Shown in pieces: positions 43,328-60,326 of a stretch of 64,000 bases of DNA. Below the pieces are notes generated by a model. That model was not told the origin of the DNA. It saw only the letters and a program-made list of their open reading frames with translations, and did no database searches. Position 1 is the stretch's first letter, and the number at the start of each line of letters is the position of its first letter. Source of the DNA: Microbacterium azadirachtae (GTDB lineage: Bacteria > Actinomycetota > Actinomycetes > Actinomycetales > Microbacteriaceae); the NCBI RefSeq assembly GCF_000956505.1, contig NZ_JYIX01000040.1, positions 310,001-374,000 on the forward strand, written 5' to 3'. The position numbers were made by a program, and so were the translations under genes.

Positions 43328-44583
43328 CCGGGGTCGTCCTGGCCCTGCCCCCGGAGCGCGCCGAGGGTCTCGCGGAAGAGCTGGAGCTTGCCGGCGTCGC
43401 GGTGATCGCGCGGATGCCGCCGCACCAGGCCGCCCGCCTGGTCGCGCACGCCGAGGAGCTCCGCGGTGCCGAGGCGCTGCTGATCCCGGCGGAGCGGGCA
43501 TGGTTGAGCCCGGCGCTGCGCGGGGCCTGCGACCGCGCGGGCGTGCGGATCCTGACTCTGGGCGACGGTCCAGCCGCCGCCCGGCTCGCGCACCGGCACG
43601 GACTGGGCGCGCCGTTGCCCGCCTCCGCGAGCGGATGGGATGTCGCAGACGCGTTCCACGACAGGGGCACGGACGCGGACAGTGGCGCGACGAGCACCGC
43701 CGGCGCCGGCGCCGCCGCCGCCTCGCCGAACCGGCTGATCGCGGTGTGGGGCCCGCACGGCGCACCGGGACGCAGCACGGTCGCGGTGCAGCTCGCGGCG
43801 CTCCTCGCCGCCCCGGATCGAGGGGTCGCCCTCGTCGACGCCGACACCCATGCCCCTGCCCTCGCCCTCCTGCTGGGCCTGACCGACGACGGGCCAGGCA
43901 TCGCCGCCGCATGCCGCCGCGCGGAGCTGGGACTGCTCGACGGCGCCGAACTCAGCCGGCTCTCCCGCCCCGCGGAGTCCTCCGGCGGCACCATCGACGT
44001 GCTGGTGGGCATCAACCGCCCCTCGCGCTGGCCGGAGCTGTCGGCCGCGCGTCTGCGCGCAGCGCTCGACGCCTGCCGGCGCTGGAGCGCGATCACCCTG
44101 GTCGATGTCGCGGCCTCGCTCGAGGCCGACGAGGAGATCAGCAGCGATCTGGACGGCCCCCGGCGGAACGCCGCGACGCTCAGCGCCCTGCACAGCGCCG
44201 ACCGCATCGTGGCGGTGGCCGCGGCGGACCCGCTCGGGATCGCCCGATTCGTGCGCGGCTATGCGGAGCTGCGCGCCGAGGTCGGCGACGTCCCCGTCAC
44301 GGTCGCCGTGAACAAGGTGCGTCCAGGCCCCCTCGGCGTCGACGCGCGCGGTCAGGTCCGGCGCGCCCTGGACCGGTTCTCCGGCATCCGCGAGGTGCAC
44401 TTCCTGCCGTACGATCGGCGCGCGCTGGATGCCGCAGCCCTGCACACCAGACCCGTACCCGACGTGGCGGGCCGCTCGGCGTTCGCGACTGCCGCGCGCA
44501 CCCTCGCCATGACCCTGATGCGCGACGCGCACAGCCCCGGGACGCGGCGCGAACGGCGTCTCGGGGCTGCGGTCGCGGTCTGA
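43324..44583 (+). CDS. TadZ/CpaE-like MinD-family ATPase with altered P-loop
   Basis: A 419-residue protein: an N-terminal response-regulator-like domain (residues about 1-90), a short Gly/Ala linker, and a MinD/ParA-type domain. The deviant Walker A is GPHGAPGRST (143-152), where the signature and P-loop lysines are missing (Arg150 replaces one), while VALVDADTHAP and ITLVDVAA are kept. ATP binding is therefore doubtful. CpaE/TadZ proteins place Tad pilus machines at the pole. GTG 43324 overlaps the SAF gene. Its last 80 bp are duplicated at 46050-46129. Confidence 0.78.
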   Translation: MTGVVLALPPERAEGLAEELELAGVAVIARMPPHQAARLVAHAEELRGAEALLIPAERAWLSPALRGACDRAGVRILTLGDGPAAARLAHRHGLGAPLPASASGWDVADAFHDRGTDADSGATSTAGAGAAAASPNRLIAVWGPHGAPGRSTVAVQLAALLAAPDRGVALVDADTHAPALALLLGLTDDGPGIAAACRRAELGLLDGAELSRLSRPAESSGGTIDVLVGINRPSRWPELSAARLRAALDACRRWSAITLVDVAASLEADEEISSDLDGPRRNAATLSALHSADRIVAVAAADPLGIARFVRGYAELRAEVGDVPVTVAVNKVRPGPLGVDARGQVRRALDRFSGIREVHFLPYDRRALDAAALHTRPVPDVAGRSAFATAARTLAMTLMRDAHSPGTRRERRLGAAVAV

Positions 44584-44585
44584 CC
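44506..44585. repeat. Direct repeat flanking lower-GC islet, left copy
   Basis: Covers the 3' end of the TadZ-like gene. The last 67 bp (44519-44585) match 46063-46129 at 65 positions; similarity weakens toward 44506. It contains a hairpin (AGCCCCGGGACGC at 44533-44545 with 44556-44568) that could be the gene's terminator. Confidence 0.9.
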
Positions 44586-44742
44586 GGTGCCGACGGTCGG
44601 CGCGTGTACAGCACGAGGGCTTCATGTTGATGCCGTGGAGCTATTCGGCCGTGCTGCTCTGTCCCCGAAAAGGGTATCGATCTTGCTGCGATCGGCCCGA
44701 CTTCGTTCGACCACTAACGCAAATCTATTCGAGGGGGAAAAC

Positions 44743-45189
44743 ATGCGGTCTCATCTGCGACGGGCGGCGGTTGCCGTAGTAATGATGCTGGGAATCGGAG
44801 CTTTCAGCGGCTGCGCGATGGCGCTCGGCAATACGCGTTGCAATCTGAACGTTCAGAACCCTCATCAGTCGAGGGGAACTCCCCGATACATGGATTCAAA
44901 ACTCACTTTCACATGCGATCGAGTGGTACATGCCGTATCGGTCACAATCAAGATGCAACGCAGAGCTGGAGGCTCCTGGATTGAGGTTCCTAACTCATCG
45001 CGCACGATCTCCATCGATAACCTTCTCGCAAATACTCCACTGAAAGTGATGACTGGGGGCAATTTGCTCTGCACAGTTGGAACCTTCAGGACGGCCGGCA
45101 GGGGAACCGCGACGAACGCGCAAGGGCTCCGCGATTCGCTGGACCGGTACTACGGAGATCCTGTGTCTGTGACTTGTCCGAATTCGTAG
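44743..45189 (+). CDS. Small secreted protein or lipoprotein, unknown function
   Basis: A 148-residue protein with a signal sequence: basic RSHLRR, hydrophobic residues 8-22, then FSGC with Cys24, an imperfect lipobox (Phe at -3). The mature part has four more cysteines (CNLN, FTCD, LLCTV and VTCP contexts), suggesting two disulfides, and a beta-rich pattern. GAGGGGG lies six bases before ATG 44743. Codon use is much more A/T-rich than in neighbouring genes, a sign of transfer. No family recognised. Confidence 0.72.
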   Translation: MRSHLRRAAVAVVMMLGIGAFSGCAMALGNTRCNLNVQNPHQSRGTPRYMDSKLTFTCDRVVHAVSVTIKMQRRAGGSWIEVPNSSRTISIDNLLANTPLKVMTGGNLLCTVGTFRTAGRGTATNAQGLRDSLDRYYGDPVSVTCPNS

Positions 45190-45629
45190 TTCACGTTCGA
45201 GACGACTACCAGCGGCGGCGAACATCTCGCCTTTCGCACTCGTCGTCGCACTCTGGCGGCCAGGATGTTCGCTCCCCATCAGTGGCCGATTGCGCCATGG
45301 GTGGGATCGGTGGCCAGGGCGTTCTGCGCGGAGAGGTCGGCATCGCCCACCGAGGTCGATCGACACGAGTCTGGAGACAGGCAGTACTAGTGGGGGCGGT
45401 GGCAGGCTTCTGGACTCGTCACACGAGGAGATCCTGTGGCACCATCTTTGGTCAGGTCGGCGTTCGGAATTGGCTAGATCTGGTCTACCCTAGGGTTCGG
45501 GCTCACGCATCTGAATACACTACCAGCAGGGCCATGTGGCACAGCGAGAGGTTCAATGCTTCCTTTCATTGCAACACACCTGATTGACAATGCGGTTCTT
45601 CTAGGCAACCCTTTCTCAAGGTGAAATCT
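45190..45629. other. Gene-free part of the islet
   Basis: A 440-bp stretch between the two islet genes. Short open frames exist on both strands, but none has a ribosome-binding site with consistent actinobacterial codon bias. TTGACA at 45585-45590 is a possible -35 for the next gene, with no clear -10. It may be decayed sequence. Confidence 0.4.
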
Positions 45630-46001
45630 ATGGATGATTCAACAATTACAGCGCGACTGAGATCCAGTTTCGGGGACGATGTCCACTCCGCCGAAGGCGT
45701 TGAGCACTGTTGGCTGATCTCTTCCGAATTGGCGAGTCGCACGATCGTTCTTGAAGCAGGCGATGACGCGGTACGGATCCATGCAGGCAGGATCGTCGAT
45801 GCTCTGTCCCTGGAGGACCGCGACGACCTCGATCGGATCGTCACCCTGATCGAGGCAATCCGTGCCGGTCGCGCCTACGAATATTTTGGCTATTCGACGG
45901 AGCCGCCATTCGGCTTCATCGGATACGAAGTCAACGCACCCGGATTGGTCGTTGTGCGTGTGGACGAGGGTGCACGCATCATCCACAAGGCGCTTGTCTG
46001 A
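45630..46001 (+). CDS. Orphan 123-residue protein, unknown function
   Basis: A small acidic soluble protein. An N-terminal part with alternating strands (ASRTIVLEAGDDAVRIHAGRI) is followed by a helix (LEDRDDLDRIVTLIEAIRAG) and a C-terminal strand pair (GLVVVRVDEGARIIHKALV). ATG 45630 is preferred because AAGGTG lies at proper distance; GTG 45621 is the other option. The size, charge and isolation within an islet resemble immunity-type proteins, but no family is recognised. Confidence 0.55.
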   Translation: MDDSTITARLRSSFGDDVHSAEGVEHCWLISSELASRTIVLEAGDDAVRIHAGRIVDALSLEDRDDLDRIVTLIEAIRAGRAYEYFGYSTEPPFGFIGYEVNAPGLVVVRVDEGARIIHKALV

Positions 46002-46144: not shown

Positions 46145-47368
46145 TTACTGCTTGTAGCTCGCCAGGAAGTTGCCGAGGCGCTCGATGGCCTCGGTGATCA
46201 CGCGCGGCTCGGGCAGCGTCACCACCCGCAGGTGGTCCGGCGTCGCCCAGTTGAAGCCGGTGCCCTGCACGAGCAGGATGCGCTCAGCGACCAGCAGGTC
46301 GTAGATGAGCTTCGCGTCGTCGTGGATCTCGTGCACGTTCGGATCCAGCTTCGGGAACGCGTAGAGGGCTCCCGTGGGCTTCACGCAGCTGACGCCGGGG
46401 ATCGCGGAGAGCCCCTCCCAGGCGGCGTCGCGCTGCAGGTGCAGGCGCCCGCTCGGGGCGATCAGCGACTCGATCGACTGCACCCCGCCGAGCGCCGCCT
46501 GCACCGCGTGCTGCGCCGGCACGTTCGGGCACAGTCGCGTGGACGCGAGCAGGGTGATCCCCTCGATGAAGCCCTTCGCGTGCTGCTGCGGACCCGTGAT
46601 GACGAGCCAGCCCGACCGGTATCCGGCCACGCGGTAGGTCTTGGAGAGTCCGTTGAAGGTCAGGCAGAGCAGGTCGGGCGCGAGGGTCGCGGTGGGGATG
46701 TGGTGCGCGTCGTCGAAGAGGATCCGGTCGTAGATCTCGTCCGACAGCAGCAGCAGGTCATTCTCCCTCGCGACCTGCACGATGCCCTGCAGCACCTCGC
46801 GCGAGTACACCGCGCCGGTCGGGTTGTTCGGGTTGATGATGACGATGGCCTTGGTACGAGGCGTCACCTTGGACCGCAGATCCTCCAGATCCGGGTTCCA
46901 GCCGTTCTCCTCGTCGCACAGGTAGTGCACAGGGGTGCCGCCGGCGAGGCTGGTCATCGCGGTCCACAGCGGATAGTCCGGCGCGGGGATGAGCACCTCG
47001 TCGCCCTCGTCCAGCAGCGCCTGCATGGTCATCGTGATGAGCTCGGAGACGCCGTTGCCGAGGTAGACGTCCTCCGGGTCGACGAGCGGGAAGCCGTCGA
47101 CCTGCTCATAGCGGCTGACCACGGCGCGGCGCGCGGAGATGATGCCCTTGCTCTCGCTGTAGCCGTGCGCGGTGGGCAGCGTCGCGAGCATGTCGCGCAC
47201 GATCTGCTGCGGCGCCTCGAACCCGAAGACCGCGGGGTTGCCCGTGTTCAGCTTGAGCACCGAGTGGCCTGCCGCCTCCAGCCGAGCCGCCTCGACGAGC
47301 GCGTTGCCGCGGATCTCGTACAGGACGTTCTTCAGCTTGGACGACTGGTCGAAGGTTCTCGGTGTCAT
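46145..47368 (-). CDS. PLP-dependent aminotransferase, AlaA-like
   Basis: A 407-residue class I aminotransferase. The PLP lysine is Lys243 in GLSKTYRVAG, INPNNPTGAVYSRE binds substrate, and DEIYDRILFDD and YRSGW are conserved. Closest in pattern to alanine aminotransferase AlaA (FDQSSKLKNVLYEIRG N-terminus), which interconverts pyruvate/glutamate and alanine/2-oxoglutarate. It starts 49 bases after the gntR stop on the same strand and may be its co-transcribed neighbour. Confidence 0.92.
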   Translation of the reverse strand: MTPRTFDQSSKLKNVLYEIRGNALVEAARLEAAGHSVLKLNTGNPAVFGFEAPQQIVRDMLATLPTAHGYSESKGIISARRAVVSRYEQVDGFPLVDPEDVYLGNGVSELITMTMQALLDEGDEVLIPAPDYPLWTAMTSLAGGTPVHYLCDEENGWNPDLEDLRSKVTPRTKAIVIINPNNPTGAVYSREVLQGIVQVARENDLLLLSDEIYDRILFDDAHHIPTATLAPDLLCLTFNGLSKTYRVAGYRSGWLVITGPQQHAKGFIEGITLLASTRLCPNVPAQHAVQAALGGVQSIESLIAPSGRLHLQRDAAWEGLSAIPGVSCVKPTGALYAFPKLDPNVHEIHDDAKLIYDLLVAERILLVQGTGFNWATPDHLRVVTLPEPRVITEAIERLGNFLASYKQ

Positions 47369-47417: not shown

Positions 47418-48086
47418 CTACTCGGCGCGGGCCGCGCCCGCACGGACCGCCTCGACGTGCGCGATGCGCTCCCGGCGGCTGCTCTCCACATGCGAGGCGG
47501 CGAGCTCCGCCGCGCGCTCCGCGTCGCGTGCCTTGATCGCCTCGAACAGCTCGACGTGCTCCCCGCTGATGTGCTGCAAGTCGTCGTGCTGCGAGAGCGC
47601 CCAGCGCAGTCTGCTGCGGATGCCCTTCATCATGTCGCTCAGCAGCCGGTTCTCGGCGAGGTCCGTGACGATCTCGTGGAAGTCGGCCGCGGCGCGGCGG
47701 GATCCGATCCCGTCCCCCGACCGTGCGCCGGTCTCCTCCAGCTCGAGCGACCGCTGCAGCCGGGCGAGGCCGTCGCGCCGGTGGCGCTCCGCCGCGAGGC
47801 GGAACGCCAGGGGCTCGAGCACCGCACGCACCTCATCGAGATCGGCGAGGTCGGCGTCGGTGAACTCGCGCACCACGGCCCAGGTGTGCGGCCGCAGTTC
47901 GACGAGGCCCTCCGCGACGAGCACCTTGAGCGCGTCCCGCACCGGCACCCGGCTCACGCCGAACTCGGCCGCGAGGTCGCGCTCGATCAGGCGGCCGCCG
48001 GGGGCGCGCACGCCGTCGAGGATCGCGTCGCGCAACCACGACGCGATCCGCGTGGACTCGGGCTGACGTTCATCCGTGCTGGTCAC
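47418..48086 (-). CDS. GntR/FadR-family transcriptional regulator
   Basis: A 222-residue regulator: N-terminal winged helix (IASWLRDAILDGVRAPGGRLIERDLAAEFGVS, positions about 13-44, then RVPVRDALKVLVAEGLVEL) and a C-terminal FCD ligand domain (FHEIVTDLAENRLL, with His residues for a metal or carboxylate ligand). It is encoded right after the carbamate kinase and is the obvious local regulator of the divergent carbamoyltransferase cluster. GTG 48086 is used as start; the ribosome-binding site is poor. Confidence 0.88.
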   Translation of the reverse strand: MTSTDERQPESTRIASWLRDAILDGVRAPGGRLIERDLAAEFGVSRVPVRDALKVLVAEGLVELRPHTWAVVREFTDADLADLDEVRAVLEPLAFRLAAERHRRDGLARLQRSLELEETGARSGDGIGSRRAAADFHEIVTDLAENRLLSDMMKGIRSRLRWALSQHDDLQHISGEHVELFEAIKARDAERAAELAASHVESSRRERIAHVEAVRAGAARAE

Positions 48087-48137
48087 GGCCCCATTCTTCC
48101 ATCGCGCGGTCCACCTCCTGCGACGACGGCACGCGGG

Positions 48138-49082
48138 TCAGGCCTTCGCGGTCTCGACCCAGCGGATGCCCTCCTTGAGCGTCGGCACGATCTCGGTGCC
48201 GATCTTGCGCGCGAGCAGGTCGTCCAGCCGGTCGAGCGGACCGATGAGGGTGCGGCCTCCGGCGCGCGCGACGCGGATCGCGGCGTCGATCTTCGGCTGC
48301 ATGGATCCCTCCGCGAACGACATCGCGGAGACGGCATCGACCGAGGCCGTGTGGATGTCGCGCTGCTCCGGGGTGCCCCAGTTCTCGCTCACGTAGTCGC
48401 CGTCGGTGAGCATGATGAGCGTGTCGGCCTGGATGTCGGCGGCGAGCGCGGCGCTGGCGAGATCCTTGTCCACCACGGCCTGCACGCCGATGTGGCGGCC
48501 CTTCGAGTCCACGCGCACGGGGACTCCCCCGCCGCCCACGCATACGGCGAGGCTGCCGGCCTCGAGGAGGCGGCGGATGAGCGGCGCCTGCACGATCGAG
48601 AGCGGCATCGGCGAGGGCACGACGCGACGGAACGCGTTGCCGTCCTTCGCGATGGTCCAGCGGTACTCGGCGGCGGCCTCTGCGGCGTCGTGCGCGGAGT
48701 ACTGCGGTCCGATGAGCTTTGTGGGGCGCACGAAGGCCGGATCCGCCTCGTCGACCACGGTCGTGGTGATGATGCCCGCGACCTCGCGCTCGCCGCCCAG
48801 CGCGTTGGAGAGCTCCTGCTGCACGACGTAGCCGATCATCCCCTGCGTCTCGGCTCCGAGGATGTCGAGCGGATACGCCGCGACGTCCTGGTAGGCGAGG
48901 TTCTGGAGCGCGAGCAGGCCGACCTGGGGGCCGTTGCCGTGCGTGATGACGACTTCGTTGTCGCGGGCGAACGAGGCGAGCGCCTCGCACGCGGCCTTGA
49001 CGTTGGCCCGCAGGTATTCGGCCGTCATCGGCTCGCCTCGGCGGGCGAGGGCGTTGCCCCCGAGTGCCACTACGACACGCAT
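48138..49082 (-). CDS. arcC: Carbamate kinase
   Basis: A 314-residue kinase that makes ATP from carbamoyl phosphate and ADP, releasing ammonia and CO2. MRVVVALGGNALARRG, THGNGPQVGLL, CVGGGGVPV, VDKDLASAALA and LTDGDYVSENWG match the family throughout. No ornithine carbamoyltransferase or arginine deiminase is nearby; instead AllF/G/H genes lie divergently, so it plays the AllK role of using their carbamoyl phosphate. The start ATG 49082 faces the shared operator region. Confidence 0.95.
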   Translation of the reverse strand: MRVVVALGGNALARRGEPMTAEYLRANVKAACEALASFARDNEVVITHGNGPQVGLLALQNLAYQDVAAYPLDILGAETQGMIGYVVQQELSNALGGEREVAGIITTTVVDEADPAFVRPTKLIGPQYSAHDAAEAAAEYRWTIAKDGNAFRRVVPSPMPLSIVQAPLIRRLLEAGSLAVCVGGGGVPVRVDSKGRHIGVQAVVDKDLASAALAADIQADTLIMLTDGDYVSENWGTPEQRDIHTASVDAVSAMSFAEGSMQPKIDAAIRVARAGGRTLIGPLDRLDDLLARKIGTEIVPTLKEGIRWVETAKA

Positions 49083-49128
49083 CTGGTCTCTCCTTCGCTG
49101 AGGCCGCGAAGGCGGCCCGTTCGATCAG

Positions 49129-49162
49129 AAATGGTACTCCATTTAAGACAATGGTATACATT
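49129..49162. promoter_or_regulatory. Two palindromic operators in divergent promoter
   Basis: AAATGG-TACT-CCATTT (49129-49144) is a perfect 6-bp inverted repeat, and AATGGTATACATT (49150-49162) is a close variant centred about 20 bp away, two helical turns. They resemble FadR-type GntR half-sites (ATGGTA/TACCAT) and lie between arcC and allH. Binding by the GntR protein encoded at 47418-48086 is inferred. Confidence 0.6.
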
Positions 49163-49228
49163 CAAGAGACCACTTGATCACCCTTCCCCATCGCCCACCA
49201 CGTCGGGGAAGGCCCAGGAGAGAACACG

Positions 49229-50227
49229 ATGCCCCCCATCGCCACCCCGATCGCCGTGCGCGCGATCACCTGGGACCCCTCGCTCGAGGAGACGCTCGCA
49301 CACGCCGCCGATGCGCAGCCCTCCTCCGTGCTGGCCCGCACCCGCCCCGGCGTCACCCCGTCGATGCCCGTCGATGCCGGCGTGCGGGTGCACTCGGTGC
49401 ATCGCCGCGCCGTGAACCTCCGTGTCGGCGATGAGCTCGTCGCACTGGTCTCGGCCGCGCTCGATGACGCGCCGGCCACGGTCCGCGTCCCGGTCGAGGA
49501 CTGGACGGCGCTGCAGGTGCGCCAGGGCGATCCCGCATCGATCGGACCGGACGGCTTCCGCATCGAGACGGTCCAGGGGCCGATCGCCGTGCTCACCTCG
49601 TCGGCCACCGCGTGGGCGCCGGCCGAGATCTGCCTGTGCGCGCTCTCGGACGGGCAGCTGCTGCGCGCGGAGGCGACGATCGCGGCGACCCCCGCGCCGG
49701 TGCAGCAGTCCGCGTTCGGCAGCGCCGCCGCCGCGCTGCTCACCGAACGCGTGGCGGCTCTCGAAGAGGCGTTGCGGAGGCGGGATCCCTCCGCGATCAC
49801 CGCGGCCGCGGCAGGACTGCTCGGACTCGGAGAGGGGCTGACGCCGTCCGGCGACGACGTGCTGACCGGGCTCGCCTTCGTGAGCGCGCAGCGCGGGACC
49901 AGGCTCCATGGAGCGCTCGCATCGCTCGCCGCCGCACTCGACGACGAGGAGGAGCGAACGACGCTGCTGAGCGTCGCGACCGTCCGCCACGCGCTCAAGG
50001 CCCGCGCGCAGCACGGCCTGCACGAGCTGATCCAGGCCGTCCGCGACGGCGACGACGAGCGCATCCGCGACGCGGCGCTGCACGTCGCGGGGATCGGTCA
50101 CACCTCCGGCACGGACATCCTCTCGGGCGTCCGGCTCGCCCTGCGCACAGAGGCGGCGCTGCGCTCCGCCTCCGCACCCGTCCCCGCGACCTCGTCGTCC
50201 GGGATCATTCCGAAGGAGCAAGCGTGA
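49229..50227 (+). CDS. allH: DUF2877 protein, AllH-like oxamate carbamoyltransferase subunit
   Basis: A 332-residue DUF2877 protein. The family core is GLLGLGEGLTPSGDDVLTG (split here at residues about 190-208), with a second conserved stretch GIGHTSGTDILSGV near the C-terminus. In E. coli the DUF2877 protein YlbF was renamed AllH when it was shown, with AllF (FdrA) and AllG (YlbE), to form oxamate carbamoyltransferase. Here it opens the plus-strand operon and is overlapped by the permease gene. ATG 49229 has GGAGAGAACACG upstream. Confidence 0.85.
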   Translation: MPPIATPIAVRAITWDPSLEETLAHAADAQPSSVLARTRPGVTPSMPVDAGVRVHSVHRRAVNLRVGDELVALVSAALDDAPATVRVPVEDWTALQVRQGDPASIGPDGFRIETVQGPIAVLTSSATAWAPAEICLCALSDGQLLRAEATIAATPAPVQQSAFGSAAAALLTERVAALEEALRRRDPSAITAAAAGLLGLGEGLTPSGDDVLTGLAFVSAQRGTRLHGALASLAAALDDEEERTTLLSVATVRHALKARAQHGLHELIQAVRDGDDERIRDAALHVAGIGHTSGTDILSGVRLALRTEAALRSASAPVPATSSSGIIPKEQA

Positions 50228-51534
50228 TGACCAAGACCGTCCCCGCGGAGACCAGCACGGGTGAGTTCGAGCACGAACCCGTGCCGCTCAGCCACCGGAA
50301 GTCGCTCTTCACCGTCTCGGCGGTGTGGTTCGGCTTCCCGATGATCCTCACCAACGCCGTGCCCGGTGGACTCGTGGTCGCGATGCTGGGCTTCTGGCCC
50401 GGTGTCGGCGCGATCCTCACCGCGAACGCGATCATGTTCGTCTATGTGAGCCTGCTCAGCTGGCGCGCGGGCCGCACCGGCAAGAGCTTCTCGCTGCAGG
50501 CGACCGAGACCTTCGGCACGGCGGGCTACGCGATCGCGTCGGGATTCCTCTCGACCGTGGTCGTCGGATGGTTCGCGTTCAACACGGGCGCGACCGGCGA
50601 CAGTCTCAGCACGGCCTTCGGCTGGAACGAGACGCTCGTCGCCGCACTCGCAGGCCTCGTGTTCATCGCCGTCACGTACCTCGGCATCCGCGCCCTGTCC
50701 GTACTGGGCGCGATCGCGGCACCGCTGTTCATCGCGGCGGTCCTCATCGCGATCGGCATCGCGGCGCAGAACCACGACTTCTCCGCGGTCTTCGGCTACA
50801 CCGGCGTCGGCGGCGGCGCGATGTCGTTCGGCGTCGCGGTGACCGCGATCATGGCGACCTTCGCCGACTCCGGCACCATGACCGCGGACTTCACCCGCTG
50901 GGCGCGCAACGGCAAGCAGGCCGTGATCGCCACAGTCACCGCGTTCCCGTTCGCGAGCCTGGTCGCCCAGCTCAGCGGGGCGCTCTTCGTCGCCGCGGGC
51001 GCGATCGCGTCCCCGGCCGTGAACGGCGGCAACTTCGCGCCGATCCTGACCGGCACCCGCAATCCGCTGCTGGACGTGTTCCTGCTGCTGTTCGTCGTGA
51101 TCAACCTCGGATCCGTGTGCACGCACTGCCTCTACAACGGCGCCCTGGGCTGGTCGCACCTGACCCGTTCGAAGATGCGCGTGCTGACCCTCATCCTGGG
51201 CGTGATCGGAACGCTGGTGGCCGTGCTCGGCGCCTGGCACTACTTCGTGAACTGGCTCGCGCTGCTCGGTGTCCTGGTGCCACCGCTCGGCGCCGTGCTC
51301 ATCGCCGACCAGATCATCCTCGCGAAGCGCAACGCCGGCCGGCCGCCGCAGCGGTTCCGGCTCACCGCGCTGGTGGCCTGGGCCATCGGCGCCGGGGCAG
51401 CGCTGCTCTCGCACTTCTTCGCCCCCGTCCTGAGCGATGCCGTGGTCGGCCTCGTCGTGGGCTGCATCGCCTATCTCGCCCTGGAGCGGCTCGCCCGCCC
51501 GCAGACCGCCCTCATGAAGGAGACCATCCGATGA
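50227..51534 (+). CDS. NCS1-type cytosine permease-like transporter (CodB-like)
   Basis: A 435-residue membrane protein with about 12 helices of the cytosine/purine NCS1 family, CodB branch: VSAVWFGFPMILTNAVPGG in helix 1, DFTRWARNGKQAV after helix 6, and GSVCTHCLYNGALGWS in helix 8. Likely imports a nucleobase or ureide by proton or sodium symport. ATG 50227 overlaps the allH stop by one base, and the ankyrin gene overlaps its end (ATGA), so it is fully embedded in the operon. Confidence 0.9.
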   Translation: MTKTVPAETSTGEFEHEPVPLSHRKSLFTVSAVWFGFPMILTNAVPGGLVVAMLGFWPGVGAILTANAIMFVYVSLLSWRAGRTGKSFSLQATETFGTAGYAIASGFLSTVVVGWFAFNTGATGDSLSTAFGWNETLVAALAGLVFIAVTYLGIRALSVLGAIAAPLFIAAVLIAIGIAAQNHDFSAVFGYTGVGGGAMSFGVAVTAIMATFADSGTMTADFTRWARNGKQAVIATVTAFPFASLVAQLSGALFVAAGAIASPAVNGGNFAPILTGTRNPLLDVFLLLFVVINLGSVCTHCLYNGALGWSHLTRSKMRVLTLILGVIGTLVAVLGAWHYFVNWLALLGVLVPPLGAVLIADQIILAKRNAGRPPQRFRLTALVAWAIGAGAALLSHFFAPVLSDAVVGLVVGCIAYLALERLARPQTALMKETIR

Positions 51535-52139
51535 CCGCTTCGATCAGCGCCGACGAGCGCTACCTCGCCGCCGCTGCGGCCGGCGACCTGGACGGCGTCC
51601 GCACCGCCCTCGCCGGCGGCGCCGACCGCAACGCCGTGGACCGCGAAGAGGCCACCGCCATCCTGCACGCCGCGCGCGGCGGCCACCTCGACGTGGTGCG
51701 CGCCCTCATCGCCGAGGGCGTCGACATCGACGCCCAGGATCAGACCTGCTCGAACCCGTTCCTGTTCGGCTGCATCACCGACGACCTCGCGCTCGTGCGG
51801 ACCATGTTCGAGGCCGGAGCCGACCTCAAGCGCCTCACGCGCATGGGCGGAAACGGACTCACCCCCTCAGCGGAGAAGGGGCACCTCGAGGTCGTCCGGT
51901 ACCTCCTGGAGAACACGCGCATCAACGTCAACCTCACCAACAACCTGGGCTGGACCGCGCTGATCGAGACGATCATCCTCGGCGACGGCGGGCCGGTGCG
52001 CCAGCAGATCGTCGAGCTCCTGCTCGCGCACGGCGCCAAACCAGGCATGCCCGACCCGTGGGGAACGTCCCCCGCCGACCTGGCCCGCGAGCGCGGATAC
52101 GACGAGATCGTCGCCATCCTCGAGCGCCACCAGGCCTGA
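51531..52139 (+). CDS. Ankyrin-repeat protein within carbamoyltransferase operon
   Basis: A 202-residue soluble protein made almost wholly of ankyrin repeats, about six units: residues 8-37, 40-70, 73-104, 108-138, 139-175 and a capping 178-202. Typical pieces are AARGGHLDVVRALIAEGVDI and AEKGHLEVVRYLL. There is no signal peptide. ATG 51531 overlaps the permease stop and fdrA begins 19 bases downstream, so its co-expression is certain. Ankyrin proteins bind other proteins; a scaffold or assembly role for the AllFGH complex or permease is a guess. Confidence 0.9.
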   Translation: MTASISADERYLAAAAAGDLDGVRTALAGGADRNAVDREEATAILHAARGGHLDVVRALIAEGVDIDAQDQTCSNPFLFGCITDDLALVRTMFEAGADLKRLTRMGGNGLTPSAEKGHLEVVRYLLENTRINVNLTNNLGWTALIETIILGDGGPVRQQIVELLLAHGAKPGMPDPWGTSPADLARERGYDEIVAILERHQA

Positions 52140-52158
52140 GACCCCCGAAAGGAACACG

Positions 52159-53709
52159 ATGACCCGGCACATCGAGATCAGGAAGAACACGTACCTCGAC
52201 TCCGTCTCGCTCATGTCGATGAGCACCAGGGCGAATGCGGTCGACGGCGTCAGCCAGGCCCTGCTCGGCATGGCGACGCCGATGAACAAGGAGGTCCTCC
52301 TCAACGTCGGCGTGCAGGACGCCGCGATCGACGAGGCCAGGCCGAGCGATCTGATGATCGTGATCGACGCCTCGGACGACACCATCGCCGCGGCGATCGA
52401 GGCGGTCGACGACATCCTCGCCCGCAAGGACAAGGGCACCGCCGGCGCCGCCGAGGTGCGCTACCGCACTCTGGACGGCGCGTTCGCGGAGGTCCCTGAC
52501 AGCGACCTCGTGCTCATCTCGGTGAACGGCGCTTTCGCGGCCCGCGAGGCGCGCAAGGCGCTGAACGCCGGCAAGCACGTCATGATCTTCTCCGACAACG
52601 TGTCCGTGGAGGACGAGCTGGCCCTCAAGACGCTCGCGCACGACAAGGGCCTGCTCGTGATGGGCCCGGACTGCGGCACCGCCATCATCAACGGCACCGG
52701 CCTCGCCTTCGCGAACGCCGTCCGTCGCGGCTCCATCGGCATCGTCGGCGCCTCCGGCACCGGCAGCCAGGAGCTGAGCGTGCGGATCCACGACTTCGGC
52801 GGCGGCGTCTCGCAGCTGATCGGCACGGGCGGTCGCGACCTCAGCACCGAGATCGGCGGCATCTCGATGATCGACGGCATCGCCGCGCTCGACGCGGATC
52901 CGGAGACAGCGGTGATCGTCGTCGTCTCCAAGCCCCCGGCAGAGGAGGTCGCCGACAAGGTGCTCGCCGCCGCCGGCGCCGCGTCGAAGCCGGTCGTCGT
53001 CACCTTCCTCGGATCCACTCGCACCGAGAGCGGCTACGAGAACGTGACGCTCGTCTCCGGCACCAAGCCGACCGCGATCGCGGCGGTGGTCGCGAGCGGC
53101 ATCGACGAGTCCGCGCTCGACACGCATCCGCTGAACCTCCCGCTGATCGCGGAGGTGCGCGCGAAGCTCGCCCCCGAGCAGGCCTATGTGCGCGGGCTGT
53201 TCTGCGGCGGCACGCTGTGCGACGAGGCGATGTTCGCGGCGCTCGCGACCTCCGACGACGTGTACTCCAACATCCAGAAGGACCCGGCGCGCGTCATCGG
53301 CGCGAGGGACGTCTCCCGCGCGCACACCTTCCTCGACATGGGCGACGACGACTTCACCAACGGCCGTCCGCACCCGATGATCGATCCGACCCTGCGCCTG
53401 CAGCGGCTGGTCCAGGAGGCCGACGATCCCACCGTGGGCGTGATCGCGATGGACTTCATCCTCGGCTTCGGCTCGCACGAGGATCCGGTGGGGGTCACGA
53501 TCCCGGCGATCCAGGAGGCCAAGGCGAAGGCCGCGGCGCGCGGGCAGCACCTGGAGGTCCTCGGCTACGTGCTCGGCACCGACCTCGACAGCCCGGCGAT
53601 CGCCGACCAGATCGCGAAGCTCGAGGCCGCGGGCGTGACCATCGCCTCCTCCTCCACCAACCTCGGGCTGCTGGCCCGCGAATTCGTCGCGAAGGGTGAC
53701 AACCGATGA
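52159..53709 (+). CDS. allF: FdrA/AllF, oxamate carbamoyltransferase subunit
   Basis: A 516-residue protein of the FdrA family, related to succinyl-CoA ligase subunits. GPDCGTAI (from residue 169) and GIVGASGTGSQE (from 194) form the nucleotide/phosphate-binding core, and a ligase-CoA-like C-terminal domain follows (FCGGTLCDEAMFAAL, IDPTLRLQRL). In E. coli FdrA is AllF of the oxamate carbamoyltransferase complex, which converts oxalurate plus phosphate to oxamate plus carbamoyl phosphate. GAAAGGAAC precedes ATG 52159; the stop overlaps allG (ATGA). Confidence 0.9.
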   Translation: MTRHIEIRKNTYLDSVSLMSMSTRANAVDGVSQALLGMATPMNKEVLLNVGVQDAAIDEARPSDLMIVIDASDDTIAAAIEAVDDILARKDKGTAGAAEVRYRTLDGAFAEVPDSDLVLISVNGAFAAREARKALNAGKHVMIFSDNVSVEDELALKTLAHDKGLLVMGPDCGTAIINGTGLAFANAVRRGSIGIVGASGTGSQELSVRIHDFGGGVSQLIGTGGRDLSTEIGGISMIDGIAALDADPETAVIVVVSKPPAEEVADKVLAAAGAASKPVVVTFLGSTRTESGYENVTLVSGTKPTAIAAVVASGIDESALDTHPLNLPLIAEVRAKLAPEQAYVRGLFCGGTLCDEAMFAALATSDDVYSNIQKDPARVIGARDVSRAHTFLDMGDDDFTNGRPHPMIDPTLRLQRLVQEADDPTVGVIAMDFILGFGSHEDPVGVTIPAIQEAKAKAAARGQHLEVLGYVLGTDLDSPAIADQIAKLEAAGVTIASSSTNLGLLAREFVAKGDNR

Positions 53710-55127
53710 GCGTCAACGAACTGTTCGGCTCCGCGCTGAAGCCGGTCAACCTCGGCCTCGACATGTTCGCCGAGGATCTCGCGGCGCAGGGCGTGAGCCC
53801 TGTTCTCATGGACTGGACCCCGCCCGGCGGCGGCGACCCCGAGGTCATCGCCGCACTCAGCACGCTCGAGGACCCGGCGATCGCCGCCAAGATCGACGCC
53901 GCCAACCAGGAGGCGCTGAGCCGCATCCTCGCCGCACAGCCGTTCCTGGAGGACTTCGGCCAGGCGATCGACGTCGTCCCAGGGATGACCGCGAAGACGA
54001 TCCTGCACGCCGGCCCGCCGATCGCCTTCGCCCGTATGTCCGGCCCGATGAAGGGCGCCGTCACGGGCGCCCTCGTCTTCGAGGGGCTCGCGAAGGACCT
54101 CGACGAGGCCTTCGAGCTGGCCGCCTCCGGCGAGATCACCTTCTCGCCCTGCCACGAGCACCAGTCGGTCGGCTCCATGGCGGGGGTCACGAGTGCCAGC
54201 ATGTGGGTGCACCAGGTGCGCAACCGCACGCACGGCAACCTCGCGTTCACGAACCTGTCCGAGCAGCTCTCCAAGATCCTGCGCTTCGGCGCCAACGACC
54301 AGTCGGTCATCGACCGTCTGAACTGGATGCGCGACGTGTTCGGCCCCGTGCTCTCCGGCGCCATGAAGCTCAACGCCGACGGCATCGATCTGCGACTCAT
54401 GCTCTCGCAGGCGCTGCACATGGGCGACGAGGCGCACAACCGCAACGTGGCCGGCACGACCCTGCTGATCCAGGCGCTCGCGCCCTACATCCTGGAGACC
54501 GACTTCACGACGAAGGAGAAGCGCGAGGTCTTCGACTTCGTCGCCTCGTCGGACTACTTCTCCGGCCCCACCTGGATGGTCACGGCGAAGGCGTCGCTGG
54601 ATGCCGCGAACGGCATCGAGAACTCCACGGTCGTGACCACGATGGCCCGCAACGGCGTCGACTTCGGCATCCGCGTCTCCGGCACCGGCGGCCAGTGGTT
54701 CACCGGACCCGCGCAGCAGGTCGTCGGCCCGATGTTCGCCGGCTACACCCCGGCCGACTCCGGCCTCGACATGGGCGACTCCGCGATCACGGAGACCTTC
54801 GGCATCGGCGGCTTCGCCATGGCCGCGGCGCCCGCGATCGTGGCCCTCGTCGGCGGCACCGTCGACGAGGCCATGGGCTACTCGCGCACCATGAACGCCA
54901 TCACGACCGGGAACAACCCGAACGTGACCATCCCGGCGCTCGACTTCATGGGCGTGCCCACCGGCATCGATGTGCGCAAGGTCATGGAGACCGGGATCCT
55001 CCCGATCATCAACACCGCGATCGCCCACAAGGATCCGGGCATCGGCATGATCGGCGCCGGCATCACCCACCCGCCCGTCGAGGCTTTCCAGCAGGCGCTC
55101 GTCGCGCTCGCGGGCCGCGTCGCCTGA
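53706..55127 (+). CDS. allG: DUF1116/AllG, oxamate carbamoyltransferase subunit
   Basis: A 473-residue DUF1116 protein (YlbE, renamed AllG in E. coli). Conserved stretches include MDWTPPGGGD near residue 36, ITFSPCHEHQSVGSMAGVTS near 149 with Cys and His residues that could serve catalysis or metal binding, and GDEAHNRNVAGTTLL near 240. Along with AllF and AllH it completes the three-subunit set. A perfect-stem terminator follows at 55138. Confidence 0.9.
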   Translation: MSVNELFGSALKPVNLGLDMFAEDLAAQGVSPVLMDWTPPGGGDPEVIAALSTLEDPAIAAKIDAANQEALSRILAAQPFLEDFGQAIDVVPGMTAKTILHAGPPIAFARMSGPMKGAVTGALVFEGLAKDLDEAFELAASGEITFSPCHEHQSVGSMAGVTSASMWVHQVRNRTHGNLAFTNLSEQLSKILRFGANDQSVIDRLNWMRDVFGPVLSGAMKLNADGIDLRLMLSQALHMGDEAHNRNVAGTTLLIQALAPYILETDFTTKEKREVFDFVASSDYFSGPTWMVTAKASLDAANGIENSTVVTTMARNGVDFGIRVSGTGGQWFTGPAQQVVGPMFAGYTPADSGLDMGDSAITETFGIGGFAMAAAPAIVALVGGTVDEAMGYSRTMNAITTGNNPNVTIPALDFMGVPTGIDVRKVMETGILPIINTAIAHKDPGIGMIGAGITHPPVEAFQQALVALAGRVA

Positions 55128-55137
55128 CCCCCTGACA

Positions 55138-55169
55138 GCCGGCGCGGGCGCCCGATCGCCCGCGCCGGC
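55138..55169 (+). terminator. Terminator after allG
   Basis: GCCGGCGCGGGCG (55138-55150) and its exact complement (55157-55169) form a 13-bp stem with a 6-nt loop, 11 bases after the allG stop. It suggests the allH-to-allG message ends here. Confidence 0.8.
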
Positions 55170-55252
55170 CACCATCCAGGCCCTGCGTCGTCCTCGCCGG
55201 TGCCCGCAGCCCCCACACCGCACGTGCGAGCGCATCGTGCCGACAGATATGG

Positions 55253-56749
55253 ATGACGATGTCCGCCACCCCCATCGATCCTGCCCTGGTGGATCCCGGC
55301 GCCGAGCGCGTCGCGGAGTATTCGCGGCGCGGCTACGCCGATGACGTGCTGCCGATCCGCCCTCAGGAGCGCACCTGGAGGACCACGCAGTTCCTCACCG
55401 TGTGGATGGGACCGATCCACAACATCCTGTCCTACTTCACGGTGGTCGGCTTCTTCGCGCTGGGCCTGTCCGCCTGGCAGGTCGTCGCGGCGATCATGAC
55501 GTCGGCGGTGATCGTCTCCCTCGGGTACGTCCTGAACGGGCAGGCGGCAGCGAAGTACGGCGTGCCGTTCGCGATGCAGCTGCGCGAGGCGTTCGGCCAC
55601 AAGGGCGCGCTCCTGCCCACCTGGATCCGCGGCATCATCGCGGGCGTCGTGTTCTTCGGCCTCACCACGGTGTCGGCGGCGAAGGCGTTCGACGTGGTCT
55701 TCACCACGATCTTCCCCGGATTCATGGACATCGGAGGCGGAGGGGACATCTTCGGGCTGCCGATCCCCACCGCCATCTCCTATCTGGTGACCTGGGTGAT
55801 CACGGTCACACTGTTCCTCGGCGGCCAGAAGTTCCTCGGACGGTTCAGCACCTGGGCCAACCCCGCGGTGTTCGTCCTCGTCGTCATCGCCGTCGTCCTC
55901 GCCGTCGTCAACGCGGGCGGCTTCGGTGACGTGTTCGCCTTCCAGGCCGTGCACACCGCGGTGACGCCGCTGATCTTCATCAGCTGCGTCTCCGCTCTGG
56001 TGTCGAACTGGGCGGGCCCGATCGTGAACACGGGCGACTACACCCGCAACGCCACGTCGATGAGGGCGCCGGCGATCGGCTTCCCGATCGGAGTGATCGG
56101 CTCCTACATCCTGTTCACCCTGGTGACCGTGTCGTTCATGGCTTCCCTGCAGGTCGCGACCCGCGGAGAGTTCGACATCAACAGCCCCGGCGTCTTCGTG
56201 CAGGCGATCAACTCGATCGGCAACCCGTTCGTCGTCGTGCTGCTCATCCTCGCCATGAACGTCGGGGCGATCGCGTTCTGCGTGTTCGGCAACATGCTGC
56301 CCGCGGGTCTACAGCTGACCGCGCAGCTGCCGAAGGTCTTCACGGTCACGCGCGCGGCGGTGCTCTCCGCGGTCCTCGGCACGCTGATGCTGCCGTGGGT
56401 CTTCCTGGAGAACACCGACGTGCTCTTCCTCTTCTACTCGTTCATCGGATCGATGTTCGGGCCGATCGCGGGCATCATGCTCGCCTCGTACTTCATCGAG
56501 GGCAGGAAGACGCTCGATCTGGACGGCATCTACGCCGACTACAAGGGCGGACAGAAGGGATCCCTGCCCGCGTACAACTGGCGCGCGGTGGGCCTGCTGA
56601 TCGTGAGCTTCGTCATCACGATGGCGGGCACCGTACTGAAGGACGTCGACGTCCTGGTGCAGATCAAGAACCTCGCGTTCTTCGCCGGTCTGTTCATCGG
56701 GTTCGTCGGGTACGCCCTGCTCACCCTGGCCGCCCGCCGGCGCGCCTGA
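55253..56749 (+). CDS. NCS1-family permease (allantoin/hydantoin/nucleobase type)
   Basis: A 498-residue transporter with about 12 helices from a different NCS1 branch than the CodB-like one upstream: longer N-terminus (RGYADDVLPIRPQERTWRTTQFLTVW split at residues about 26-51), WMGPIHNILSYF in helix 1, and NTGDYTRNATSM between helices. Branch members carry allantoin, hydantoins, uracil or purines with sodium or protons. ATG 55253 or 55259 may be the start; neither has a good ribosome-binding site. The deaminase gene follows by 19 bases. Confidence 0.88.
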   Translation: MTMSATPIDPALVDPGAERVAEYSRRGYADDVLPIRPQERTWRTTQFLTVWMGPIHNILSYFTVVGFFALGLSAWQVVAAIMTSAVIVSLGYVLNGQAAAKYGVPFAMQLREAFGHKGALLPTWIRGIIAGVVFFGLTTVSAAKAFDVVFTTIFPGFMDIGGGGDIFGLPIPTAISYLVTWVITVTLFLGGQKFLGRFSTWANPAVFVLVVIAVVLAVVNAGGFGDVFAFQAVHTAVTPLIFISCVSALVSNWAGPIVNTGDYTRNATSMRAPAIGFPIGVIGSYILFTLVTVSFMASLQVATRGEFDINSPGVFVQAINSIGNPFVVVLLILAMNVGAIAFCVFGNMLPAGLQLTAQLPKVFTVTRAAVLSAVLGTLMLPWVFLENTDVLFLFYSFIGSMFGPIAGIMLASYFIEGRKTLDLDGIYADYKGGQKGSLPAYNWRAVGLLIVSFVITMAGTVLKDVDVLVQIKNLAFFAGLFIGFVGYALLTLAARRRA

Positions 56750-56768
56750 TCCGGACGAAGGAGACCCC

Positions 56769-57257
56769 ATGACCCCCGCCACTCCCCCGGCCGACGTGCT
56801 GGACCGCTACTTCGCGCAGGCCGTCGAGGCGACCCTCGAAGGCCTGCGCGCCGGAGACGGCGGACCGTTCGGCGCCACGCTCGTCGATCCCGCCGGGCGG
56901 ATCGTCGTCGCCGTCGGCAACACCGTCCTCCGCGAGACGGATATCTCCGGCCACGCCGAGATGGTCGCGGTGCGCGAGGCGTGCACGAAGCTGGAAACCC
57001 TGGATCTGTCGGGCCACGTGATGTACGCGACGTGCGAGCCCTGCCCGATGTGCGTCGCCGTGATGATGTGGGCGGGGATCACCACCTGCTTCTACGCGTC
57101 GACCCGCGTCGACGCGGCCGACAACGGATTCAGCGATCTGCGCCTGCGCCGTTTCCTCGACGGCAGCGACACCTCGGCGCTCGACATGATCCACCTCGAG
57201 CGCGGCCGCGAGGACTGCGCCGGGATCTGGACGGAATTCCAGCGCCGGAACGCCTGA
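56769..57257 (+). CDS. Nucleoside/nucleobase deaminase (GuaD-like)
   Basis: A 162-residue zinc deaminase. GHAEM (His62, catalytic Glu64) and EPCPMC (Cys92, Cys95) are intact. The C-terminal region with DAADNGFSD matches guanine-deaminase-like members (GuaD) more than tRNA adenosine deaminases. It likely deaminates a purine, pterin or related ring in the cytosol. It is co-transcribed with the preceding permease and adjacent to the AllFGH genes, which suggests that the imported compound is first deaminated. GAAGGAGA precedes ATG 56769. Confidence 0.88.
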   Translation: MTPATPPADVLDRYFAQAVEATLEGLRAGDGGPFGATLVDPAGRIVVAVGNTVLRETDISGHAEMVAVREACTKLETLDLSGHVMYATCEPCPMCVAVMMWAGITTCFYASTRVDAADNGFSDLRLRRFLDGSDTSALDMIHLERGREDCAGIWTEFQRRNA

Positions 57258-57264
57258 CCGGCGG

Positions 57265-57307
57265 ACGAAGGAGGCCGGCACCCTGGACGGGTGCCGGCCT
57301 CCTTCGT
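57265..57307. terminator. Strong bidirectional terminator
   Basis: A perfect 19-bp inverted repeat (ACGAAGGAGGCCGGCACCC at 57265-57283, complement at 57289-57307) with a 5-nt loop lies between the deaminase stop and the convergent secA stop. It should end both messages. Confidence 0.9.
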
Positions 57308-57325: not shown

Positions 57326-60127
<2,802 letters not shown>

Positions 60128-60296
60128 GGATTCCATCTCCCTAGGGGTCTGACCCGCGCGCGACGCGCGCACGGCATACGGACCCATGTTACCGGGCCGT
60201 GACCTGTCGATCCCCTGCACCGGGTCGGTGGATCCGATCCGAGGCCCGGTCGCCGCCCCCGGGGCTGCGACACACCGCGCGGCGGAGGCAGACGGA

Positions 60297-60326
60297 TGTT
60301 TCCGAGTATGCATATACTCGGAAACA
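60297..60326. promoter_or_regulatory. 30-bp palindromic operator, probable PadR site
   Basis: Perfect 13-bp arms, TGTTTCCGAGTAT at 60297-60309 and its complement at 60314-60326, flank GCAT. The sequence TATACT (60313-60318) inside the right arm could be the -10 of the padR operon, so a bound dimer would block it. It lies 22 bases before the padR start. Confidence 0.75.

Follow-up and report, generated by a model that had tools for sequence, protein, structure and literature searches.

The 64,000-nucleotide stretch of the Microbacterium azadirachtae genome analyzed here (the window; positions 310001-374000 of contig C40, NZ_JYIX01000040.1, in a host genome of 4.24 Mb in 40 contigs) holds nine genes between an aminotransferase gene (46145-47368, minus strand) and secA (57326-60313, minus strand; named by sequence and conserved position). 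We interpret them as a probable catabolic transcarbamylase pathway of the type encoded by the uncharacterized yah operon of Escherichia coli. The gntR and carbamate kinase genes run leftward; the genes for a DUF2877 protein, an NCS1 permease, an ankyrin-repeat protein, FdrA, a DUF1116 protein, a second NCS1 permease and a deaminase run rightward. The ends of the cluster, 47418 and 57257, are exactly those given in an initial annotation made from the sequence alone, and family searches confirmed the DUF2877, FdrA and DUF1116 genes, the divergent carbamate kinase and GntR genes, the two NCS1 permeases and the GuaD-like deaminase that it had named. That gene list was right as far as it went but missed the ankyrin gene. 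The overlapping starts and stops it described are likewise real (4 bp between the FdrA and DUF1116 genes, 1 bp between the DUF2877 and first permease genes, 4 bp between the latter and the ankyrin gene), although the DUF2877 gene is not adjacent to the FdrA gene. The features are:

47418-48086, minus strand: GntR/FCD regulator (PF00392 and PF07729, both over cut-off)
48138-49082, minus strand: carbamate kinase (NF009008, 410.9 bits, cut-off 361; best PDB matches are solved carbamate kinases)
49131-49142, plus strand: operator-like site 1 (ATGGTACTCCAT), with two mismatches to ATGGTATACCAT
49151-49162, plus strand: operator-like site 2 (ATGGTATACATT), 20 bp from site 1
49229-50227, plus strand: DUF2877 protein of the YahE/AllH family (PF11392, 81.9 bits)
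50227-51534, plus strand: NCS1 permease a, CodB-like (PF02133; NF008241 at 186 bits, under its cut-off of 326; best PDB match cytosine permease 7qoa)
51531-52139, plus strand: ankyrin-repeat protein, YahD type (Ank_2, E 8.8e-25)
52159-53709, plus strand: FdrA protein, YahF type (NF004760, 477 bits, cut-off 433)
53706-55127, plus strand: DUF1116 protein, YahG type (PF06545, 295 bits; identity; tree)
55253-56749, plus strand: NCS1 permease b, distantly allantoin-permease-like (PF02133; NF008476 at 378 bits, under its cut-off of 620; 34% identity to AllW)
56769-57257, plus strand: CDA-superfamily (GuaD-like) deaminase (PF00383; best PDB matches guanine deaminase 1wkq/1tiy)
57265-57307, no strand: perfect 19-bp inverted repeat, terminator-like, between the deaminase and secA ends

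Homologues of all three subunits of E. coli AllFGH and a linked carbamate kinase are thus present (PF06545, PF11392, NF004760, NF009008), and the initial annotation had labeled the set AllFGH. This label has to be revised. Identity to E. coli YahF is 60% for the FdrA protein, as against 40% to AllF; for the DUF1116 protein the values are 69% (YahG) and 47% (AllG), and the ankyrin protein matches YahD at 53% across 187 residues. E. coli K-12 encodes both the yah and the all loci. The remaining members are less one-sided: the DUF2877 protein has 26% identity to YahE over 259 residues and 32% to AllH over 107, while the kinase is 48% identical to AllK as against 37.5% for YahI. A quick maximum-likelihood tree was built from 78 of 84 Yah-type proteins (after a length filter), five relatives here termed type B, and E. 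coli AllG; in it the window protein and E. coli YahG fall in the 78-row clade with a support of 100, and AllG and the type B proteins lie opposite. Because of the higher identity to YahF and YahG than to AllF and AllG, together with the separate clade, the correct subfamily label on sequence grounds is the Yah type (the YahEFG branch), not AllFGH proper. A full-text literature search on the yah gene names returned, in the portions of the literature it covers, no work on the function of yahDEFG; the term 'yah' is absent from the main texts of PMC11326118, PMC9843812, PMC3364942, PMC6022934, PMC12507026 and PMC4016543, and yahI is mentioned merely as a poorly characterized carbamate kinase (PMC3423039).

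The DUF1116 gene is the only AllG-family gene in the whole genome, and the closest named relatives of its product are from Microbacterium. To place it we used 84 loci: the window, L014, L015, the E. coli locus L017 and the 80 top-ranking of 269 relatives that an alignment of four YahG-type proteins retrieved from named genomes, the ranking being by likeness to that query. Four of these loci are shorter than 13 kb, and presence was counted by tblastn because gene picking was crude in the GC-rich loci. YahF was found in 83, YahE in 78, the ankyrin protein in 70 and carbamate kinase in 69; some permease is present in 71 (NCS1a in 19, NCS1b in 31, an NCS2-like family in 36). A deaminase of either type occurs in 49 loci (GuaD-like in 35, YahJ-like in 19, both in 5). 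More scattered are PucR (36), GntR (23), an alpha/beta hydrolase (23), M20 relatives (10), AHY33 (6), an amidase (4) and BiuH (1, weak, 29% identity), and no locus has AllB, AllD, AllE or AtzD. From these counts we take import, YahEFG, the ankyrin protein and the kinase as the core and the deaminase as a recurrent extra that looks optional in the pathway, judging by gene content. The initial annotation had proposed a fixed order of deamination and then ring opening, to be sought by neighborhood comparison. This order is not supported by 19 of the 80 loci of at least 13 kb, which have a permease and a kinase yet lack the GuaD-like, YahJ-like, M20 and alpha/beta-hydrolase proteins, and no ring-opening enzyme common to the 84 neighborhoods is among the matches listed.

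Within the genus the system is sporadic, with an AllG-family match over cut-off in 24 of 366 genomes; in a sample of the family, 8 of 398 genomes have an AllG-family gene, three being of Yah type by neighborhood (the present genome, L014 and L015) and five not. The cluster is nonetheless not a chance assembly, because in 11 of the 12 named Microbacterium loci it is flanked by the same aminotransferase and secA genes; the remaining locus (L021) is a 4.6-kb contig. The Yah branch extends across Actinomycetota, Bacillota and Pseudomonadota; no relative of the cluster was found in the viral contigs searched. Two further observations concern this branch. The permease family present in 36 of the Yah loci (L054:12796-14343) has no Pfam or NCBIfam match at E 0.001, and Glutamicibacter uratoxydans (L084), whose name points to urate oxidation, has a Yah-type locus.

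The FdrA/DUF1116/DUF2877 transcarbamylases were given a function only in 2024, and for one substrate, the oxalurate that E. coli AllFGH turns into oxamate and carbamoyl phosphate; the latter is passed to a carbamate kinase encoded in the same operon (PMC11326118). AllG, type B and YahG proteins have polar residues in common (e.g. H101, C149, H150, D241, E242, H244, R246 and N247), and YahG is set apart by others, such as E151 (H in AllG and type B), S157 (P) and Q187 (G). This pattern suggests that YahEFG catalyzes the same phosphorolysis as AllFGH on another carbamoyl donor. The DUF1116 protein has a solved close relative, 3clq (69% identity), itself uncharacterized and the sole match of its predicted model (mean predicted local distance difference test score, pLDDT, 83.6) in a structure search at E <= 0.001; FdrA has the solved relative 3dmy. 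The predicted model of the DUF2877 protein (49229-50227) is confident (mean pLDDT 91.5), yet among solved structures neither Foldseek (E <= 0.001) nor VIA (Z >= 5) gave a match for it, which does not show a new fold. In the ankyrin family, 32 aligned rows retain invariant residues beyond the repeat pattern, e.g. R117, N150, W154, E159, D165-G166-G167 and Q171 (numbered by the reference row; the window's long open frame is not among the rows), and these might form a partner-binding face.

The accessory proteins bear on what enters the pathway. In permease b the equivalents of Mhp1 W117 and Q121, which bind hydantoin in Mhp1, are replaced: 28 of 29 rows have F at the first and 28 of 29 have T or K at the second, as opposed to AllW, which keeps W and Q; the equivalents of W220 and N318 are kept in all 29. 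Permease b thus differs from hydantoin and allantoin permeases at two of the four positions compared. The deaminase matches guanine deaminase 1wkq at E 2.4e-25, with an alignment that ends at residue 131 of 162; the C-terminal part of GuaD closes the active site. A satellite locus lies some 175 kb away from the cluster on this contig (C40 ~172-183 kb; L185, L186, L103). One side of it encodes a PRK06151-type amidohydrolase together with a second FCD-GntR regulator; the other encodes a family-5 solute-binding protein, an ABC permease and a YahJ-like amidohydrolase. In Leucobacter zeae (L040) a protein with 57% identity to the PRK06151-type one is encoded 2.9 kb away from YahG, and in Leucobacter sp. 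(L030) one with 76% identity to the YahJ-like protein is encoded 31 bp away from YahG. The two satellite amidohydrolases are kin of TRZ/ATZ-type hydrolases and of AtzC/cytosine deaminases. They offer the best candidates for the pathway's missing steps and lean toward an amino N-heterocycle as cargo, so that the imported nucleobase or ureide of the initial annotation gains some support in its amino N-heterocyclic form.

The divergent promoter between the kinase and yahE genes carries both palindrome-like sites, for which the chance expectation over the whole window is a mean of 0.06. Of 28 actinobacterial loci, 27 (all but L015) have a site with <=2 mismatches to ATGGTATACCAT, and 17 have sites spaced exactly 20 bp apart (<=3 mismatches); the corresponding numbers per shuffled region are 0.003 and 0 (neither corrected for kinship). 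The paired TGGTATACC-type sites mark this promoter as the place of candidate operators that would fit the neighboring GntR/FCD regulator. In the satellite locus, TGGTATAC sites stand ~22 bp apart in a divergent promoter, a feature that is possibly general for this regulator family; a two-mismatch site lies in L103, and one such site in some 125-155 kb of the genome's own sequence is near chance. No match was obtained in an Rfam search of the window, and a dip in G+C at 44001-46000 (0.63 vs ~0.71 nearby) holds only short unassigned open frames.

These lines converge on a Yah-type catabolic transcarbamylase pathway in which a carbamate kinase yields ATP and ammonia, a reading that we regard as probable because of the identities to YahF, YahG and YahD, the YahG clade, the frequency of the kinase (69/84) and of a permease (71/84), the activity of AllFGH (PMC11326118), the shared polar residues and the conserved operators. 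The carbamoyl-phosphate and ATP pathway of the initial annotation is supported in that homologues of a proven three-subunit carbamoyltransferase, a carbamate kinase and permeases fit it. In this scheme, the NCS1 permeases, going by their family, would import a nucleobase-like or ureide compound, and the GuaD-like deaminase, perhaps with the two satellite amidohydrolases, would feed related amino compounds in. YahEFG, likely with the ankyrin protein as a fourth component, would by homology to AllFGH use phosphate to split an N-carbamoyl intermediate of the ureido or acylureido kind, giving carbamoyl phosphate plus an amine or amide. The carbamate kinase, as is established for its family, would convert carbamoyl phosphate and ADP into ATP, ammonia and CO2, and the GntR protein would probably control the divergent promoter via the paired TGGTATACC-type operators. 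A more specific proposal makes the ankyrin protein an obligatory fourth subunit of YahEFG, with a new transcarbamylase donor and amino N-heterocycles entering via interchangeable GuaD-like and YahJ-like deaminases, for which E. coli yahDEFGIJ would be the model; this we put forward tentatively, rating its chances somewhat below even.

Several points weigh against a Yah-type pathway as drawn here. No Yah-type protein has a known activity, and the DUF2877 protein is just 26% identical to E. coli YahE. The branch of E. coli AllG in the quick tree is very long and its placement unsure. By tblastn, 15 of the 84 loci lack a carbamate kinase, some of them being short contigs. Without a common ring-opening enzyme among the listed matches, the route from the cargo to the N-carbamoyl compound is a gap. 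Finally, TGGTATACC-like sites are also found at another FCD-GntR locus of the genome, and the motif may be general to FCD-GntR regulators.

Among the alternatives, the likeliest, though in our judgment still an unlikely one, is that the donor is a ureide of the purine pathway (allantoate or ureidoglycolate), with phosphorolysis by YahEFG replacing allantoate amidohydrolase much as in the ureidoglycine transcarbamylase of Rubrobacter. That enzyme, the precedent for this idea, converts allantoate and phosphate to ureidoglycine and carbamoyl phosphate (PMC4016543), and E. coli YgeW performs a similar reaction in reductive urate breakdown (PMC12507026). Salvage of carbamoyl phosphate from ureides is therefore already known; a Yah-type enzyme for such salvage is not. 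Contig C15 (L121, L122) encodes, over NCBIfam cut-offs, urate oxidase, HIU hydrolase, OHCU decarboxylase, allantoinase, glyoxylate carboligase, glycerate kinase and 8-oxoguanine deaminase, with a hydroxypyruvate isomerase match under its cut-off. The initial annotation had argued from the window's lack of allantoin genes that the substrate is not allantoin; the absence of AllB, AllD and AllE from the 84 loci agrees with its conclusion, but the argument itself fails with uricase and allantoinase on C15. As for a complete allantoin pathway elsewhere in the genome, the part from uricase to allantoinase is there, and the allantoate step was not found: the genome has no M20 allantoate amidohydrolase over the TIGR01879 cut-off and no match to allantoicase, whose model matched in one of 41 genus genomes. 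The C15 purine-to-glyoxylate cluster itself contains no recognized allantoate enzyme, a gap also seen in two AllG-negative genomes (G410 and G416).

Uricase is also enriched in genomes with an AllG-family gene: within the genus, 18 of 24 AllG-positive genomes have it, and 82 of the remaining 342 do (Fisher p 6e-7 without correction; AllG-positive means over cut-off, and G430 is thus counted as negative). In a smaller sample of 22 AllG-positive and 19 AllG-negative genomes, which leaves out G430 (weak match) and the incomplete G684 and G690, uricase is found in 17 and 6, respectively, and an M20 family member over cut-off in 8 and 10. The M20 relatives and PucR at the Yah loci themselves point the same way. 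Against a ureide donor, 14 of the 18 AllG-positive uricase genomes fall within one 23-row clade of the uricase tree (59 of 60 rows, G659 left out). The amidohydrolase is missing from 40 of 42 AllG-negative uricase stretches (taken from 41 of the 82 AllG-negative uricase genomes; that of G417 lies just outside its stretch), and permease b lacks the two residues retained in the allantoin permease. These 40 stretches, the gap in G410 and G416 and the clumping on the uricase tree weaken the notion of Yah as a stand-in for allantoate amidohydrolase. A regulon link to the uricase cluster was likewise rejected, there being no operator with <=1 mismatch in 60 loci (L123-L182: 58 uricase stretches, the short L139 and the allantoicase locus L140); queries with PyrB, YgeW and ArgI found nothing in 60 uricase stretches. 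Since the satellite amidohydrolases lean to an amino N-heterocycle, we lower this alternative slightly further.

Appreciably less probable is a biuret- or triazine-type donor. Type B relatives adjoin a relative of biuret hydrolase (BiuH, 266 bits, under the cut-off of 370) or a cyanuric acid amidohydrolase (AtzD, 560 bits, cut-off 360), allFGHK adjoins biuH in nitrifiers (ammonia oxidizers and comammox; PMC12625717), and among solved proteins E. coli YahJ is most like N-isopropylammelide isopropylaminohydrolase. The type B proteins, however, lie outside the YahG clade, the 84 loci offer no AtzD and a single weak BiuH, and the present genome has no AtzD match, though no control genome matched either. 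In L011 (2999-10489) genes for DUF2877, FdrA, DUF1116 and carbamate kinase are directly followed by the cyanuric acid amidohydrolase and an NCS1 permease, and this AllFGH-type set may serve a cyanuric-acid-like compound. A 645-aa permease-like protein adjoins AllFGH-type genes in L010 (12432-14369), L012 (12405-14342) and L013 (5661-7598); the C-terminus of the L010 protein matches the allophanate hydrolase C-terminal domain (PF21986), and the other two copies share its length and start.

That the window encodes an ordinary oxamic transcarbamylase, splitting oxalurate into oxamate and carbamoyl phosphate as AllFGH does, would account for the same three protein families and the linked carbamate kinase. 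We consider it more doubtful still: the window protein sits in a clade apart from AllG, the other genes of the route (AllB, AllD, AllE) have no homologues at the Yah loci, and the oxalurate route is unsupported because no AllD-family (PF02615) gene was found in the genome by a search whose control matched in 4 of 14 genomes, including E. coli. Lastly, that YahF and YahG are not a transcarbamylase at all but an acyl-CoA or acyl-phosphate ligase whose neighboring kinase acts on some other acid, fits the place of FdrA within the succinyl-CoA synthetase alpha family and is the least credible of these readings, given the measured transcarbamylase activity of the homologous AllFGH complex (PMC11326118) and the carbamate kinase at most Yah loci.

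The cluster thus points to a second branch of FdrA/DUF1116/DUF2877 transcarbamylases, with its own permeases, deaminases, regulators and ankyrin partner. It ties a Microbacterium locus to an uncharacterized operon of E. coli K-12, so that the function of yahDEFG can be tested in a laboratory strain, and it may reveal an ATP-yielding nitrogen source for soil and gut bacteria. In its composition it is closest to that operon, yahDEFG(H)IJ, which also groups ankyrin, DUF2877, FdrA and DUF1116 genes and has a carbamate kinase-like gene and a deaminase-type hydrolase alongside; it departs from it in an AllK-like kinase, a CDA-type deaminase in place of the YahJ amidohydrolase, two NCS1 permeases, a GntR regulator and another gene order. 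With E. coli AllFGHK (PMC11326118) it shares three homologous subunits and a carbamate kinase, but at 40-47% identity and in a separate clade, with an ankyrin gene that AllFGHK does not have and in a genome without an AllD-family gene. Like the allFGHK of nitrifiers, it has no upstream purine genes, and GntR and codB are named in the legend of the synteny figure for those loci; unlike them, it has no biuH (PMC12625717). Finally, Rubrobacter Rxyl_2847 offers a parallel in the way it works, a catabolic transcarbamylase joined to a carbamate kinase; the Rubrobacter enzyme, however, is a single ATCase-type protein within a uricase operon (PMC4016543), a family with no match among the proteins of the window cluster.

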